A stretch of 43,525 nt of DNA from Phycisphaerales bacterium (GTDB taxonomy: Bacteria > Planctomycetota > Phycisphaerae > Phycisphaerales > UBA1924), in assembly GCA_017640485.1 (NCBI GenBank), contig JAEPQP010000009.1, positions 1-43,525 of the forward strand. The letters are read 5' to 3'. The translations under genes and the position numbers were made by a program. Positions 8,557 to 15,360 of this stretch are shown piece after piece. The notes under the pieces were generated by a model. It was not told where the DNA came from and searched no databases. It saw only the letters and a list, made by a program, of their open reading frames with translations. The first letter of the stretch is position 1. Each line of letters opens with the position of its first letter.

Positions 8557-8712
8557 AACTTGGCTCGGGTTCTTTTTGAATTTGAGTAGAATCCGTGTAT
8601 CCAGTCGTTCATGCTTATCGAAACCTGTTTCAGATGAGTCCTGGTGGGTACGTTTCTGTTTTTTGGGAGACTGCTATTGCCTCTCGTATGAGTCTTGATT
8701 AGCATCCGAAGC
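8557..8712. other. Intergenic leader upstream of the his attenuator
   Basis: This 156-base stretch between the nnrD stop and the His-rich leader ORF must hold the his promoter unless transcription reads through from nnrD. There is a short weak hairpin with a T-run just after the nnrD stop (TTCTTTTT at about 8571-8578) and a small inverted repeat, GAAAC CT GTTTC, near 8620-8631. I cannot identify a convincing -35/-10 pair. Confidence 0.4.
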
Positions 8713-8772
8713 ATGTTTACTGCACAGACCCATTCCGTTCATCATTCGAGCCATTCCGTTGGCTGGTGGTGA
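8713..8772 (+). CDS. hisL: Putative histidine operon leader peptide
   Basis: A 19-codon ORF upstream of hisG encodes MFTAQTHSVHHSSHSVGWW and ends with TGA at 8770-8772. Four of eight consecutive residues (7-14) are His, all CAT codons, and a nine-base unit CATTCCGTT is repeated at 8731-8739 and 8752-8760. A short His-rich ORF directly ahead of a terminator-like hairpin and hisG is the arrangement of his attenuators in enteric bacteria. The ribosome-binding site is weak (no clear Shine-Dalgarno before ATG 8713), which is the main reason for caution. The protein itself would have no function beyond ribosome stalling. Confidence 0.65.
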   Translation: MFTAQTHSVHHSSHSVGWW

Positions 8773-8833
8773 TCGTGTAAGCAGGGAACCCTGATCAATA
8801 CACTTTACAACGCCGGCCCTTGGTCGGCGTTGT
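8761..8833 (+). promoter_or_regulatory. Putative his transcription attenuator (competing RNA pairings)
   Basis: Bases 8761-8768 (GGCTGGTG, the last codons of the leader) can pair with 8811-8818 (CGCCGGCC) as an 8-bp helix with two G-U pairs. That would occupy the 5' arm of the terminator hairpin at 8807-8833, so the two structures exclude each other. A third small hairpin, GTGTA 8775-8779 with TACAC 8799-8803 around CAGGGAACCCTG, lies between. Inferred logic: a ribosome stalled at the His codons (8731-8754) leaves 8761-8768 free and permits read-through, while one reaching the stop covers it and allows termination. Confidence 0.6.
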
Positions 8834-8841
8834 TTGTTGAT
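8807..8841 (+). terminator. Attenuator terminator hairpin upstream of hisG
   Basis: A perfect nine-base stem ACAACGCCG (8807-8815) / CGGCGTTGT (8825-8833) extends inward by three more pairs (one G-U) to a CTT loop. It is followed by a modest T-rich stretch, TTGTTGATGG. It sits between the leader peptide and hisG, about 65 bases before the hisG start, so it would stop transcription before the structural genes. The T-tract is weak, so termination efficiency is uncertain. Confidence 0.65.
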
Positions 8842-8887
8842 GGACGGTGAATCATCAACAGATTGCCCCAGGGGTCGGCTCCAAGAA

Positions 8888-8893
8888 GAGGAG
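8888..8893 (+). promoter_or_regulatory. Ribosome-binding site of hisG
   Basis: GAGGAG six bases before ATG 8900 fixes the hisG start. An upstream in-frame TTG at 8834 would put the N-terminus inside the terminator region and add residues absent from HisG proteins. Confidence 0.75.
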
Positions 8894-8899
8894 CCGAGT

Positions 8900-9775
8900 A
8901 TGGCTACAGACGAACAGAATGAAACCATCCGCTTTGCGATCCCCAAGGGACGGATGTACGACGGGGTTTCGAAGCTCCTGAGTGAAGCGGGGATCAACAT
9001 CCGGACGAGCTCGCGTGATTACCGCCCGAGTATTTCGCTCGCGAACTACGATGTCAAAATCCTGAAGCCTCGCGCGATCATCGAGATGCTGGATCTGGGG
9101 GCTCGGGATCTTGGATTCGCGGGCGCGGACTGGGTGAGCGAGGACAACGCGGATCTGGTTGAGTTGCTCGATACTGGACTCGATCGAGTCCGATTGGTCG
9201 CCGCGGTTCCTGAGGCGAGCGATGAGATCCGGCTGCTGAATCGACCCGAGGCGGTGGTTGCATCAGAGTATGTGAACATCACGCAGCGCTGGATCGATGA
9301 GCGTGGGTACAGCGCTCGGCTGATCCGGAGTTACGGCGCGACGGAGGTGCTCCCTCCTGAAGATGCGGACTGCATCATCGATAACACGGCGACCGGATCG
9401 ACGCTCGATGCGAACAACCTGCGGATCATCGATGAGCTGATGACTTCGACGACGCGTGTGTATGCGTCGAGAGCCGCGATGGAGAATCCTCAGAAACGAG
9501 AGCGGATTGACAGCTTTGTGCTCCTGATCCGCTCGGTCCTCGAGGCTCGCAAGCGGGTGATGCTGGAACTGAATGTATCGAGTGAGCAGCTCGAATCGGT
9601 GGTTTCGGTGCTGCCTTGCATGCGACAGCCGACGGTCGCACCGATGCACAACTCCAACGGATTCGCGGTGAAGGTCGCGGTTCTTCGTGATGAGCTCACA
9701 GAGGTGATCCCATTGATCAAAGCACGCGGCGGTTCGGACATCATCGTGAACCAACCAGGGCAGATCGTACCATGA
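8900..9775 (+). CDS. hisG: ATP phosphoribosyltransferase, long form
   Basis: 291 residues; catalyses the first step of histidine synthesis, PRPP plus ATP to phosphoribosyl-ATP. The N-terminus IRFAIPKGRMYDG and the PRPP-binding segment DCIIDNTATGSTL identify the catalytic domain. The last about 75 residues (from LNVSSEQLESVVSVLPCMRQ to the end) form the C-terminal regulatory domain of the long, HisZ-independent HisG, which normally binds histidine for feedback inhibition. First structural gene after the attenuator; its stop overlaps the hisC start by four bases. Confidence 0.95.
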   Translation: MATDEQNETIRFAIPKGRMYDGVSKLLSEAGINIRTSSRDYRPSISLANYDVKILKPRAIIEMLDLGARDLGFAGADWVSEDNADLVELLDTGLDRVRLVAAVPEASDEIRLLNRPEAVVASEYVNITQRWIDERGYSARLIRSYGATEVLPPEDADCIIDNTATGSTLDANNLRIIDELMTSTTRVYASRAAMENPQKRERIDSFVLLIRSVLEARKRVMLELNVSSEQLESVVSVLPCMRQPTVAPMHNSNGFAVKVAVLRDELTEVIPLIKARGGSDIIVNQPGQIVP

Positions 9776-10869
9776 AATGTGAATCTGACTCCAGAGTAGT
9801 GTGTGCAGCGGATCGGATCGGTGGGCTTAGGCCGTACAGCAGACCGGTCGAGGATCCCTCGATCTCGTTGTATCTCGACAACAACGAGGGATCGCCTCCG
9901 AGTGATCAACTATTGGGTGCTCTGAACACACTGCAAGCTTCGATGCTTGCTCGATATCCTGATGCGGGTCCGATCGAAACGATGATTGCACAGGAGTTTG
10001 GGGTTGATCCATCGCGGGTGATCCTGACCAACGGCGGCGACGACGCGATTGATCGAATCTGCCGATCGGTGCTCGGTCCGGGTGATTCGATGCTCACGCA
10101 CACCCCTGGGTTTGTGATGATCCAGCGGTACGCGCAGCTTGCGGGTTCGAGCATCGAGACTATTCCCTGGATTGACGATGCGTTCCCGATCGACGCGTTT
10201 CTGCAAGGCATTCAGGATCGCACCAATCTGGTGGCGTTGATTTCTCCATCCAATCCAACGGGGCGCGTGATCGATCGCGAGTCGATCCGAGCGATCGCGG
10301 AACGGGCTCGTGCGGGTGGCGCATTGCTGATGCTCGATCAGGCGTACATCGAGTTTGCGGATGATGATCCGATCGAGGATGTGCTCGACCTAGAGAATGT
10401 GGTCATTGTCCGAACATTCTCGAAAGCGATGGGACTCGCGGGACTGCGTGTGGGATACGCGATCGGACCGACGAGGGTGGTGGAGTGGATGCGCACAGTC
10501 GGTGGGCCGTATCCAGTTTCAGCAGTCTCGATCGAGCTTGCGCAGGAGGCGTTTCTTGGTCGGGTGGATCGGGATCCACTCATCAACCGGACCATCGATC
10601 ACCGATCGCTGCTGACACAGTTGCTGGAATCACTCGGTGCGGTGGTCCTTCCTTCGCAAGCGAACTTTGTGCTCGTGAAGTTTCAGGACGCAGGTTCTGT
10701 GTACCAAGGGCTTCTGGAACGGGGGATCCGTGTACGCGGTTTCGGTGCTGAACCACAGCTCAAAGACATGCTGCGGATCACGGTCCCTGCTGATCCCGGC
10801 AATTTCGACTTCCTGATGAACTCAATTCGCGATGTCCTTCCCTCAATAGGAGCAACGAACAATGTCTGA
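9772..10869 (+). CDS. hisC: Histidinol-phosphate aminotransferase
   Basis: 365-residue class I/II PLP aminotransferase converting imidazole-acetol phosphate to histidinol phosphate. Visible motifs are YLDNNEGSPPS near the N-terminus, LTNGGDDAIDRI, SPSNPTGRVID, LMLDQAYIEF and the PLP-lysine segment FSKAMGLAGLRVGYA. In the aspartate motif the usual DEAYxEF reads DQAYIEF, a mild deviation that keeps the PLP-contacting Asp. Start and stop overlap hisG and hisB respectively, so it sits in a continuous translational chain. Confidence 0.94.
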   Translation: MKCESDSRVVCAADRIGGLRPYSRPVEDPSISLYLDNNEGSPPSDQLLGALNTLQASMLARYPDAGPIETMIAQEFGVDPSRVILTNGGDDAIDRICRSVLGPGDSMLTHTPGFVMIQRYAQLAGSSIETIPWIDDAFPIDAFLQGIQDRTNLVALISPSNPTGRVIDRESIRAIAERARAGGALLMLDQAYIEFADDDPIEDVLDLENVVIVRTFSKAMGLAGLRVGYAIGPTRVVEWMRTVGGPYPVSAVSIELAQEAFLGRVDRDPLINRTIDHRSLLTQLLESLGAVVLPSQANFVLVKFQDAGSVYQGLLERGIRVRGFGAEPQLKDMLRITVPADPGNFDFLMNSIRDVLPSIGATNNV

Positions 10870-11458
10870 TTCACCACGCACTTCCACGCTCACTCGATCG
10901 ACCAATGAAACCGAGATCGTGGCCAAGATCAATCTGGATGGATCCGGCGCATCGCAGATCTCAACCGGACTCGGGTTCTTTGATCACATGCTCGACGCGC
11001 TTGCTCGTCACAGCGGGATGGACATTGAGCTCAGCTGCAACGGAGATCTTCGGGTTGACGACCACCACACGATCGAAGACTGCGCGTTGGTTCTGGGGAA
11101 ACTGATCGATGACGCACTCGGGGATCGGGTCGGGATCACGCGATTCGCCAGCGCCTATGCGCCGCTTGATGAATCCTTGGCTCGCGTGGTGGTTGATCTC
11201 TCTGGTCGTCCGAGTGCGATTGTTGAACTTGGATTCACAAGAGAGATGATCGGTTCGGTCGCGACGGAGAATATCACCCACTTCTTTGAATCGCTCGCTG
11301 TCGGGATGCGCGGAACACTGCATGTCGATTTGATTCGAGGGCGCAACGATCATCACAAAGCGGAAGCGGGATTCAAGGCGCTTGCACTTGCGATGCGTGA
11401 CGCTGTCAGGATCACACGCGGGGATTCGATACCTTCGACCAAGGGGACGCTGTCATGA
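10862..11458 (+). CDS. hisB: Imidazoleglycerol-phosphate dehydratase
   Basis: 198 residues, the usual size of the monofunctional enzyme that dehydrates imidazoleglycerol phosphate to imidazole-acetol phosphate. The two metal-binding histidine clusters are DDHHTIEDCAL and RNDHHKAEAGFKAL, and the substrate segment FFDHMLDALARHSG lies near the N-terminus. There is no N-terminal HAD phosphatase domain as in enteric HisB, so histidinol-phosphate phosphatase must be elsewhere. GGAG lies upstream, and the first codons overlap the hisC end by 8 bases. Confidence 0.96.
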   Translation: MSDSPRTSTLTRSTNETEIVAKINLDGSGASQISTGLGFFDHMLDALARHSGMDIELSCNGDLRVDDHHTIEDCALVLGKLIDDALGDRVGITRFASAYAPLDESLARVVVDLSGRPSAIVELGFTREMIGSVATENITHFFESLAVGMRGTLHVDLIRGRNDHHKAEAGFKALALAMRDAVRITRGDSIPSTKGTLS

Positions 11459-12048
11459 CTGATCCTGAGGTTGTCATTCTCAATACCGGGATTGCGAATA
11501 CGGCGTCGGTCATCGCGGCGTTTGAACGCTTGGGATGCCGGGTCCTGCTGACCGATGATGCTGATACTGCGCGGAATGCTGAGCTGTTGGTGCTCCCGGG
11601 TGTAGGGAATTTTTCATCTGGAATGGACGCACTTCTTGAAACAGGTCTTGATCAGGTGATCCGCGAGCGTGTTGAGCACAATCGTCCGCTTCTGGGGATC
11701 TGCTTGGGACTCCAGCTCTTGTGCACATCATCGGAAGAGTCTCCTGGTGTTCACGGGCTCGGCGTCATGGATGCATCGGTGACCCGATTCCCTGCGGGCG
11801 TACGGACACCGCAGCATGGATGGAACGCCGTGGGCGATGGGTACGCGTATTACTCGAATACATATCGAATCGAATCGATCCCGGCGGGTTGGGATGGGAT
11901 CTACAGCACACACGGCGGCGAGTTTGTTGCGTGCCTGTCGCGTGGATCGATCCTCGCGTGCCAGTTCCATCCTGAACTCTCCGGGTCTTGGGGTGAATCG
12001 TTGCTCCGGAAATGGATTCGTACCTCAGTGGAGGTGTCGTCATGCTGA
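11455..12048 (+). CDS. hisH: Imidazole glycerol phosphate synthase, glutaminase subunit
   Basis: 197-residue class I glutamine amidotransferase that supplies ammonia to HisF. The nucleophile Cys83 lies in LLGICLGLQLL, and His172 and Glu174 in CQFHPELSG complete the triad. The oxyanion-strand PGVGNFSSGM is present. The segment AYYSNTYRI replaces the more usual YFVHSY-type motif, a small oddity. It overlaps hisB by four bases and hisF by seven, as expected for subunits of one complex. Confidence 0.94.
   Translation: MTDPEVVILNTGIANTASVIAAFERLGCRVLLTDDADTARNAELLVLPGVGNFSSGMDALLETGLDQVIRERVEHNRPLLGICLGLQLLCTSSEESPGVHGLGVMDASVTRFPAGVRTPQHGWNAVGDGYAYYSNTYRIESIPAGWDGIYSTHGGEFVACLSRGSILACQFHPELSGSWGESLLRKWIRTSVEVSSC
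12030..12035 (+). promoter_or_regulatory. Ribosome-binding site of hisF
   Basis: GGAGGT six bases before ATG 12042 selects this start over the in-frame ATG at 12012, which would add ten residues before the conserved MLTQRIIPCLDID beginning. Confidence 0.75.
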
Positions 12049-12803
12049 CACAGCGGATCATTCCGTGTCTTGATATTGATAACGGGCGCGTGGTCAAGGG
12101 TGTGAAGTTTGCGGATCTTCGGGATGCCGGGGATCCTGTTGAACAAGCGCAGCGGTATCAACTCGATGGAGCGGACGAGATTGTGATGCTCGATGTCAGC
12201 GCTACGACATCCGGTCGAGCGACGGCTTTGGAGACGGTCCGTGCCGTGCGTCGTGTTCTCTCGATCCCGCTCAGTGTTGGAGGGGGGATCCGGAGTGTCG
12301 ATCACGCATTGGCTCTGCTCGCGGCGGGCGCTGACAAGGTCGGGGTGAACAGCGCCGCGGTTGAGCACCCAGAACTCGTCGGTGATCTTTCGGATCGTGT
12401 TGGAGCCCAGTGCGTTGTCCTTTCGATTGATGCGGCACTCCGCGAAGACGGGAATGGATGGGAAGTCGTCACGCGTGCGGGCACGAACCGAACCGGGATC
12501 GATGCGCTTGCATGGGCGCAACGCGCTGCGGAGATGGGGGCTGGCGAGATCCTGCTCACAAGCTTCGATCAGGACGGGACCCAGGACGGGTATGCGATCA
12601 AGCTTCTTGAAGCGGTGCGGGGTGTTACGGATCTACCAGTCATCGCATCGGGAGGAGCGGCGCATGCTCGTCACATGCTTGATGCATTCCAAGCCGGCGC
12701 CGATGCCGTGCTCGCGGCTTCGATCTTTCACAACCAGACGACCACACCCAATCAACTCAAATCCGAACTCGCCGAGAGCGGCGTAGAGGTCCGAATGCCA
12801 TGA
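12042..12803 (+). CDS. hisF: Imidazole glycerol phosphate synthase, cyclase subunit
   Basis: 253-residue TIM barrel that closes the imidazole ring using ammonia from HisH and releases AICAR. The start at ATG 12042 gives the classical N-terminus. The two catalytic aspartates fall exactly at canonical numbers, Asp11 in RIIPCLDIDNGRVVKG and Asp130 in VVLSIDAAL. Phosphate-binding loops VGGGIRS and ASGGAAHARHML are present. It overlaps both hisH and the hisAIE fusion. Confidence 0.96.
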   Translation: MLTQRIIPCLDIDNGRVVKGVKFADLRDAGDPVEQAQRYQLDGADEIVMLDVSATTSGRATALETVRAVRRVLSIPLSVGGGIRSVDHALALLAAGADKVGVNSAAVEHPELVGDLSDRVGAQCVVLSIDAALREDGNGWEVVTRAGTNRTGIDALAWAQRAAEMGAGEILLTSFDQDGTQDGYAIKLLEAVRGVTDLPVIASGGAAHARHMLDAFQAGADAVLAASIFHNQTTTPNQLKSELAESGVEVRMP

Positions 12804-14080
12804 TGATTCCATCTATTGATATCCAAAACGGGAATGCCGTGCAACTGATCGGCGGGGAGAAGAAAGCGATCGATGCGGGTGATCCGCGTCCGATCGCTGA
12901 GCGATTTTCGAGGGTCGGGGAGATGGCGCTCATCGACCTTGATGCCGCGATGGGATGCGGCGAGAACACGGAGTTGATGCGTTCACTGTGCGCTGAGTTT
13001 CCGTGCCGGGTTGGGGGTGGGATCCGGGATGTGCAGACGGCGATCGATTGGCTCGATGCGGGTGCGCAGAAGGTGATCCTCGGGACCGCGGCGACTCCGG
13101 AGATTCTGAGCGAACTCCCTAAGGACAGGGTCATCGCGGCGCTGGATGCTCGGCATGATCGGATCGTCGTCGAAGGGTGGAAGACGCAGACTCAGTCAAC
13201 CGTTGCTGAGCGGATGCTTGAGCTTCGTGAGTTGGTGTCTGGTTTTTTGGTGACCTTTGTCGAACACGAGGGTCGTATGAAGGGGCTTCCGATCGATCGT
13301 GTCAAGGAGCTCGTGGAGGTTGCGGGTGGGGCGCGCCTGACGGCAGCCGGGGGCGTACGGAATGCGGAAGATATCGCTGCGATCAATGGGCTCGGGGCGG
13401 ATGTGCAGGTCGGGATGGCTCTGTACAGCGGAGCGATCGATCTTGCGGACGGATTCTGTGCTGGATTGAAGACGGATCGAGCGGATGGGCTCTTTCCAAC
13501 GGTCGTCTGTGACGAGCGGGGTGTCACGCTTGGGCTGGTGTATTCCAGTATTGACAGTATCCGTGCGTCGCTTGAGACTGGAGAAGGGTTGTACTACTCC
13601 CGCTCAAGGCAAGATCTATGGAGGAAGGGGGCATCCTCGGGAAACTTACAAGAACTGATCCGGATCGCGGTGGACTGCGATCTTGATGCGCTGCGATTCA
13701 CTGTCCGTCAGCGTGGGAGCGGGTTCTGTCACACCGGGACTCGATCATGCTTTGGGAACACCGGCGGGATCGGCTTGCTTGAGCAGACCATCGCTGGGCG
13801 GATACAAAGTGCGCCCGAAGGGTCGTACACGCGGCGACTGCTCGATGATTCCTCACTGCTGCAGTCCAAACTCCGTGAAGAGGTGGATGAGCTGATGAAT
13901 GCATCGACCGCAGAAGAAGCCGCGCACGAAGCGGCGGATGTGCTCTATTTCGCACTGACGCGTGCAATCCAGCGTGGAGCATCGCTGGGTCAGATCGAGA
14001 AGGTGCTTGATCGCAGAGCACTCAAGGTGACTCGAAGACCAGGGAACGCGAAACCAGCGTATTTAGGAGATCAAGCATGA
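12800..14080 (+). CDS. hisA-hisIE: HisA-HisI-HisE trifunctional fusion
   Basis: 426 residues covering three consecutive steps. Residues about 1-222 are a HisA barrel (ProFAR isomerase) with catalytic Asp7 in PSIDIQNGNAVQL, Asp116 in AALDARHDRIVVEGW, and the loops VGGGIRD and AAGGVRN. Residues about 228-319 are HisI (phosphoribosyl-AMP cyclohydrolase) with GEGLYYSRSRQDLWRKGASS and zinc cysteines C293, C310 and C317 (DCDLDA, FCHTGTRSCFG). Residues about 323-412 are HisE (phosphoribosyl-ATP pyrophosphatase) with LREEVDEL and HEAADVLYF. The frame is continuous with no internal stop, and all three domains keep key residues. HisIE fusions are common; HisA joined in front is unusual to me. Confidence 0.92.
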   Translation: MMIPSIDIQNGNAVQLIGGEKKAIDAGDPRPIAERFSRVGEMALIDLDAAMGCGENTELMRSLCAEFPCRVGGGIRDVQTAIDWLDAGAQKVILGTAATPEILSELPKDRVIAALDARHDRIVVEGWKTQTQSTVAERMLELRELVSGFLVTFVEHEGRMKGLPIDRVKELVEVAGGARLTAAGGVRNAEDIAAINGLGADVQVGMALYSGAIDLADGFCAGLKTDRADGLFPTVVCDERGVTLGLVYSSIDSIRASLETGEGLYYSRSRQDLWRKGASSGNLQELIRIAVDCDLDALRFTVRQRGSGFCHTGTRSCFGNTGGIGLLEQTIAGRIQSAPEGSYTRRLLDDSSLLQSKLREEVDELMNASTAEEAAHEAADVLYFALTRAIQRGASLGQIEKVLDRRALKVTRRPGNAKPAYLGDQA

Positions 14081-15360
14081 ATCAGGATACGGAAACACTC
14101 CTGCGGATCATTTCTGCTGAGGACTTCGATCCACAGAGCACACCAAACTCCAGCGATCGTGTGCTCACTGAAGCACAGGAGATTGTTGATCGGGTGCGCG
14201 ATCAAGGCATCAGCGCGATCCGTGCGTATGCGATCCGGTTTGGCGAGCTCGATGAATCGGCGCCGATGGTCCTTGGTCGCGACGCGATGCGGTCGGCGTA
14301 CGAGGCGCTTCAACAGGAAGACCGCGAAGCTCTGGAGCGTGCCGGGGAGCGGATCGAACGCTTTGCTCGGGCACAGCGGGATGCGATCCAGACGATGACG
14401 ATGGATGTCCCCGGCGGACAGGCGGGGCACACAGTCGAACCGGTCCGTGTCGCGGGGTGTTACGCTCCGGCGGGTCGGTACCCGCTTCCGAGTTCTGTGT
14501 TGATGACCGCGATCACGGCACGAGCCGCGGGCTGCGAGCGGGTGGTGGTCTCGTCTCCGGGCGCTCAGCAAGTCGCGCTCGCGGCTTCATACATCGCGGG
14601 TGCGGATGAGTTTCTGTGTGTGGGCGGGGCGCACGCGATCGCCGCGATGGCGTACGGCTTCGAGGGGTTTGAACGCTGTGATGTCATTGTCGGGCCGGGC
14701 AATGGATGGGTCACCGCGGCGAAACGGATCGTCTCGGGAGATGTAGGGATTGACATGCTCGCGGGTCCATCCGAACTCCTGGTCCTTGCGGATGAATCAG
14801 CTGATCTTAACCTGATCGCTGCGGACCTGCTCGCGCAAGCGGAACACGATTCGGACGCGATTCCGCTGCTGGTCACGACCTGCGATGCGCACGCTCAGCA
14901 GATCCAAGCAACGATCGAAGATCAACTCGCTTCACTCCCGACGGCAGACACAGCGCGGGAGGCGCTGAAGAATGGATTTGTTATTGTGTGTGGATCACTC
15001 GAGGTTGCCATTGAGATCACCGACCAGCTTGCCCCGGAGCACTTGGAAATCATGATGGCTGACTCAGAGCGCGTTGCAGCGCGGATACGCAACGCTGGGG
15101 CGCTGTTTATTGGTTCCAAATCCGCGGAAGTCATTGGGGATTACGGAATCGGACCGAATCACACGCTCCCGACCGGACAGACGGCTCGCTTTCAAGCTGG
15201 ACTCAGCGTGGTCCACTTTCTGAGACTCCGAACCTGGATCCGGATTGATGATCCGACAGCGTGCGCTCCGGTGCTTGAAGACACCCAACGGATTGCGCGG
15301 ATGGAAGGATTGATCGGTCACGAGCGATCCGCCGCACGAAGAGCACTCGGAACACAATGA
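14077..15360 (+). CDS. hisD: Histidinol dehydrogenase
   Basis: 427-residue zinc- and NAD-dependent enzyme oxidising histidinol to histidine, the last two steps. Motifs: CYAPAGRYPLPSSVLM, GPGNGWVTAAKRIVSG, the signature run from IDMLAGPSELLVLADESADL to LLAQAEHDSDA, APEHLEIM, and the NHTLPTGQTARF substrate region. ATG overlaps the hisAIE stop by four bases, and it is the last gene of the operon. It converges on the isomerase gene at 15378 with only 17 bases between stops and no clear terminator. Confidence 0.96.
   Translation: MNQDTETLLRIISAEDFDPQSTPNSSDRVLTEAQEIVDRVRDQGISAIRAYAIRFGELDESAPMVLGRDAMRSAYEALQQEDREALERAGERIERFARAQRDAIQTMTMDVPGGQAGHTVEPVRVAGCYAPAGRYPLPSSVLMTAITARAAGCERVVVSSPGAQQVALAASYIAGADEFLCVGGAHAIAAMAYGFEGFERCDVIVGPGNGWVTAAKRIVSGDVGIDMLAGPSELLVLADESADLNLIAADLLAQAEHDSDAIPLLVTTCDAHAQQIQATIEDQLASLPTADTAREALKNGFVIVCGSLEVAIEITDQLAPEHLEIMMADSERVAARIRNAGALFIGSKSAEVIGDYGIGPNHTLPTGQTARFQAGLSVVHFLRLRTWIRIDDPTACAPVLEDTQRIARMEGLIGHERSAARRALGTQ

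Follow-up and report, generated by a model that had tools for sequence, protein, structure and literature searches.

The window analysed here is a stretch of 43,525 nucleotides from a Phycisphaerales bacterium of the phylum Planctomycetota. It carries a his operon, complete 3' of the putative attenuator (hisGCBHF-A/I/E-D), and nnrD is the gene upstream of the leader region. The features of the locus, all on the forward strand, are as follows.

8677-8705, + strand: candidate sigma-70-type promoter, TTGCCT (8677-8682) and TAGCAT (8700-8705) with 17 nt between them, a weak match that homologous leaders support
8713-8772, + strand: leader peptide hisL, a 19-codon open reading frame encoding MFTAQTHSVHHSSHSVGWW and a stop codon, with homologous His-rich leaders at 100 of 111 close hisG loci
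8736-8775, + strand: possible segment 1:2 hairpin, the His10-His14 region (8736-8753) with the leader end (8760-8775), from the minimum-energy fold
8761-8818, + strand: antiterminator predicted in the nascent-RNA fold, 8761-8772 and 8775-8779 pairing with 8799-8803, 8805-8808 and 8811-8818, with an apical hairpin at 8782-8793
8807-8839, + strand: intrinsic terminator, stem 8807-8818/8822-8833 and loop 8819-8821, with compensatory changes at 6 of 9 pairs
8877-8895, + strand: hairpin GGCTCC/GGAGCC with the hisG Shine-Dalgarno sequence inside it, of uncertain role; the model works without it
8900-9775, + strand: hisG, ATP phosphoribosyltransferase (passing the cut-offs of TIGR00070 and TIGR03455), with which the controlled operon begins
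9772-15360, + strand: the remainder of the operon, hisC, hisB, hisH, hisF, the hisA-hisI-hisE fusion and hisD

The original prediction proposed a 19-codon open reading frame with four His in residues 7-14 ahead of hisG, and translation bears this out: His occupies residues 7, 10, 11 and 14 (codons 8731-8733, 8740-8742, 8743-8745 and 8752-8754), and at least four His in 18 codons has P = 1.7e-4 given the 1.6% His of the neighbouring genes. All four regulatory codons are CAT, and the neighbouring genes favour CAC, 31 to 9. Within the operon, 12800-14080 encodes one protein of 426 residues that unites HisA, HisI (PRA-CH) and HisE (PRA-PH) domains.

Conservation of the leader and of its start

HisG served to gather relatives, both in searches of whole genomes and on named contigs, and upstream DNA was obtained for 60 further loci. 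The close set comprises 111 non-redundant loci whose HisG is at least 44% identical, and a leader was counted when it held at least four His per 10 residues. Such a leader is present at 100 of the 111 loci, against 0.43 expected from shuffles and 3 on the reverse strand; these are counts over related loci and not independent events, and most of the shuffles preserve base composition only. One of the 100, at L091, is probably spurious, as it falls inside the coding sequence of a HisR-like gene. Median values for the leaders are 20 residues in length and 6 His, and their His codons are CAT in 354 cases and CAC in 275; both codons being used, selection appears to act on the amino acid and hence on translation. 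The hosts named include Phycisphaerales, Phycisphaeraceae, Pirellulaceae, Planctomycetaceae, and Mariniblastus and Blastopirellula metagenome-assembled genomes. Judged from sequence, the His codons, the terminator and the pairing of the leader end with the terminator 5' arm are kept throughout Phycisphaerae and the Pirellulaceae/Planctomycetaceae relatives. Relatives without the His codons, or with both pairings broken, had been named as evidence against the idea, which survived this comparison with all three features conserved.

The start of the leader is conserved as well. In the window the -10 box ends 7 nt ahead of the leader ATG; its promoter boxes, at about 8 of 12 matches, are weak and fall below threshold in a promoter scan. 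Across the homologous leaders, the distance from the end of the -10 box to the start codon is 5-11 nt (13 in one), and TTGAC lies 33-40 nt 5' of the start codon at 66 of 101 loci, with 0.98 expected and a maximum of 5 in 200 shuffles. A Shine-Dalgarno-like motif precedes 6 of 101 leaders, compared with 82 of 98 hisG starts. The absent Shine-Dalgarno had been counted as a weak point; the absence is real, but with so few SD-like motifs and the -10 box so regularly spaced it is a conserved feature rather than a weakness, and it would follow from a promoter that sets the transcription start at or near the leader start codon. We infer that the leader mRNA is leaderless across the family, with +1 predicted on the start codon or at most a few bases from it.

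Upstream of a second, distant type of HisG from the same phylum (about 33% identity), a His-rich open reading frame occurs at just 2 of 36 loci, and upstream of trpE in 30 relatives it occurs at none, nor was a convincing Trp-leader family seen there. A covariance model spanning the His codons, the leader end and the terminator gives matches below E 1e-5 that all lie just 5' of hisG, one per genome; eight weaker matches were inspected and set aside as generic gene-end terminators, with no second His leader among them. Rfam searches of the window and 16 relatives, at gathering and relaxed thresholds, returned nothing beyond chance matches, including no match to a his T-box riboswitch, and none to His_leader (RF00514). 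Because most genomes of the family have no full match to leuA or ilvB, these genes are unusable as further leader tests. The trpE model was matched in all 51 genomes searched, and roughly half of the family's near-complete genomes, including some from the window's genus, lack hisG. Amino-acid prototrophy thus looks patchy in this family on gene content, hisG often being absent and ilvB and leuA mostly giving no full match.

In addition, close HisG proteins, mostly with His leaders, are found at L041, L048, L051, L069, L072, L074 and L078, on contigs titled Myxococcota, Armatimonadetes, Spirochaetes, Euryarchaeota, Bacteroidetes, Myxococcales and Zixiibacteriota. These may be mislabelled or misbinned contigs, or cases of gene transfer.

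Some loci lack the leader. A YerC/YecD gene (TrpR-family, HisR-like) lies directly 5' of hisG at L088-L090 and also at L091, an apparent swap of regulator as far as gene order indicates. At L102 (about 350-420) the promoter and the hairpins are kept and the leader is eroded (MTKALHQLQHCMKPLASGECR), mixing Gln codons (CAG) with two His codons; this attenuator is perhaps decaying or changed in specificity.

Terminator, alternative pairing and ribosome position

The hairpin predicted at 8807-8833 is confirmed, with 12 pairs, and folding of the region 8713-8841, a check proposed at the outset, gives z = -3.57, with none of 200 shuffles as stable. The T-rich tail (TTGTTTGTTG, 8830-8839) has an interrupted T-tract, in agreement with the original view that it is a modest one. 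Among leader-bearing loci, a terminator follows the leader in 88 of 101, usually 23-50 nt after the stop codon and with an arm of the ACGCCGGC type, and the median score was reached by 0 of 505 shuffles. In an alignment of 41 sequences, 94.9% of the terminator cells are paired and two-sided changes occur at 6 of 9 pairs (0 of 500 shuffles). RNAalifold, applied to the whole region, shows the terminator alone, which is expected because the two structures are mutually exclusive.

The competing pairing was originally described as the leader end (8761-8768) against the 5' arm (8811-8818). The eight pairs between GGCTGGTG and CGCCGGCC, two of them wobbles, are indeed there, but the extent was understated: a nascent RNA lacking the 3' terminator arm folds in the window with 17 long-range pairs at -25.1 kcal/mol (z -2.7). 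In the window's genus the leader-end partners are GGCCGGCG or GGTCGGCG opposite CGCCGGCC or CGCCGACC; the window's GGCTGGTG departs from these leader ends through C-to-T changes, and the pairs survive as wobbles. Among 87 nascent-RNA folds, 78 contain at least 5 pairs between the leader and the 5' arm, with a mean z of -2.13. Moreover, when partners were swapped among 66 non-redundant loci, leader ends scored better with their own 5' arm (18.21) than with a swapped one (17.52; 38 of 20,000 permutations); no such preference was seen for a control stretch farther upstream (11.39 own, 11.34 swapped). Pair counts in the alignment (70.7% paired, two-sided changes at 5 of 8 pairs, 4 of 500 shuffles) back the antiterminator less strongly, and covariation is modest because the terminator 5' arm is nearly invariant. 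The inner antiterminator helix, taken alone, is weakly supported by the sequences (own versus swapped, z 1.84, p about 0.04). Without a ribosome, the segment 1:2 hairpin could possibly sequester the antiterminator strand; it comes out weak when the window's nascent RNA is modelled.

To model translation, a ribosome footprint was shifted codon by codon along the nascent RNA, and the share of the 5' arm that pairs with the leader side was read out. In the window this share reaches about 0.80 when His 7, 10 or 11 occupies the A site and is 0.50 at His 14, then 0.07-0.16 from codon 16 up to the stop codon and 0.16 at the stop itself. Averaged over 87 loci, it is 0.69 at His codons, 0.31 at the stop and 0.41 without a ribosome, and the His value exceeds the stop value in 80 of them. 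The drop at the stop codon partly follows from masking, so the informative half is the shuffle control: when the RNA that separates the ribosome from the terminator is shuffled, the His value falls from 0.73 to 0.34. The proposed logic, in which a stall at His codons favours antitermination and a ribosome at the stop codon favours termination, is thereby reproduced in silico. In an equilibrium model of the window, the terminator is at 0.97-0.98 at every ribosome position; since it is always favoured at equilibrium, the switch must be kinetic.

Proposed mechanism and alternatives

We consider it very probable that this Planctomycetota element is a classical ribosome-mediated his attenuator acting on a leaderless leader-peptide mRNA. 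From the leader, the terminator, the alternative pairing, the promoter spacing and their conservation, we infer the start site, the stalling, the termination and the response to histidine. Transcription would begin on the leader ATG or no more than a few bases away, and a ribosome would load without a Shine-Dalgarno sequence. With charged tRNA-His plentiful, the ribosome would reach the stop codon and cover 8761-8772, the terminator at 8807-8833 would form and transcription would end. With charged tRNA-His scarce, the ribosome would stall at His codons 7-14 and leave 8761-8779 free to pair with 8799-8818, so that no terminator forms and hisG to hisD are transcribed.

The same region might be explained by a hairpin that merely terminates the nnrD transcript, a His-rich reading frame arising by chance and a hisG promoter located downstream. 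The position of nnrD upstream in the window and the similar GCCGGC terminators at the ends of other genes in these genomes fit such a view, but chance would have to place a His-rich frame at 100 of 111 loci, at similar spacing to the hairpin and with a promoter at its start, and to match terminators with their own leader ends better than with swapped partners; we regard this as extremely improbable. Another possibility is translational attenuation, in which the leader ribosome governs access to the hisG Shine-Dalgarno sequence, for example through the 8877-8895 hairpin. That hairpin persists as GGCTCC/GGAGCC among near relatives, and L036 and L038 rebuild it as GGTCGG/CCGACC. Pairing of the Shine-Dalgarno sequence is seen at no more than 16 of 46 loci, however, while 88 of 101 retain the terminator and its T-rich tail. 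Given this narrow conservation the hairpin was rejected as the main switch, and translational attenuation is very unlikely.

A trans-acting factor might also control the operon, leader translation being incidental; it could be a repressor, or else a small molecule or protein that binds the leader RNA. TrpR-family (YerC/HisR-like) genes do adjoin hisG in some relatives, but they are found where the leader is absent (L088-L091), and the preservation of His through both CAT and CAC codons points to selection on the amino acid, and so on translation. We give this explanation almost no credence. The classical attenuator on a leaderless mRNA is the reading that we prefer.

Known attenuators and meaning for Planctomycetota

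Attenuation of the his operon through a His leader is established in the enteric bacteria E. coli and Salmonella (PMC3896937). Their hisL (RF00514) resembles the planctomycete element in its His-rich peptide of about 18 residues, its terminator and antiterminator, and its position 5' of the his operon. The planctomycete leader differs from enteric hisL in having no Shine-Dalgarno sequence and lying right behind the promoter, in being compact, with three or four segments, and in having no Rfam match. The enteric his leader has more segments. Outside the enterics, comparative genomics has proposed his attenuators in Firmicutes (Bacillus cereus group, Peptostreptococcaceae, Erysipelotrichales), likewise with a run of His codons, a terminator and an antiterminator 5' of his operons; these belong to another phylum, and leaderless leaders go unmentioned in the available part of that account (PMC9413887). 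In bacilli, His leaders also lie 5' of hisS-family genes (PMC2965389). Leaderless attenuator peptides are known from trpL of Sinorhizobium meliloti (PMC7298713) and from trpL, leuL and ilvL of Streptomyces lividans (PMC8079986). These share with the planctomycete leaders an attenuator peptide mRNA that begins at the start codon, a start that in planctomycetes is a prediction, and they concern other amino acids and other phyla. The same operon also has an alternative regulator in HisR, a TrpR-family repressor of his genes (PMC9413887); unlike the leader it is a protein repressor, and HisR-like genes occur at leader-less loci.

Within the open-access literature, no planctomycete his attenuator and no leaderless his example were found, and to that extent this agrees with the original remark that no described case in this phylum was known to its author. 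The mechanism is known; the phylum, the family and the leaderless his leader are apparently undescribed. The leaderless start is the main difference from known his leaders.

These results extend ribosome-mediated amino-acid attenuation to Planctomycetota, with a family that is not in Rfam. The leader and the covariance model permit direct annotation of planctomycete genomes, and the leaderless start offers a clean system in which to study initiation without a Shine-Dalgarno sequence. In Gemmata, internal membranes have reportedly prompted claims that transcription and translation are spatially separated. Classical attenuation needs a ribosome close behind the polymerase, and thus the element would serve as a genetic assay for transcription-translation coupling in planctomycetes. 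We see an even chance that leaderless his attenuators across the phylum represent an old Planctomycetota regulator, for which a HisR-type repressor was swapped in for some lineages, and which would require coupled transcription and translation in organisms where such coupling has been questioned.
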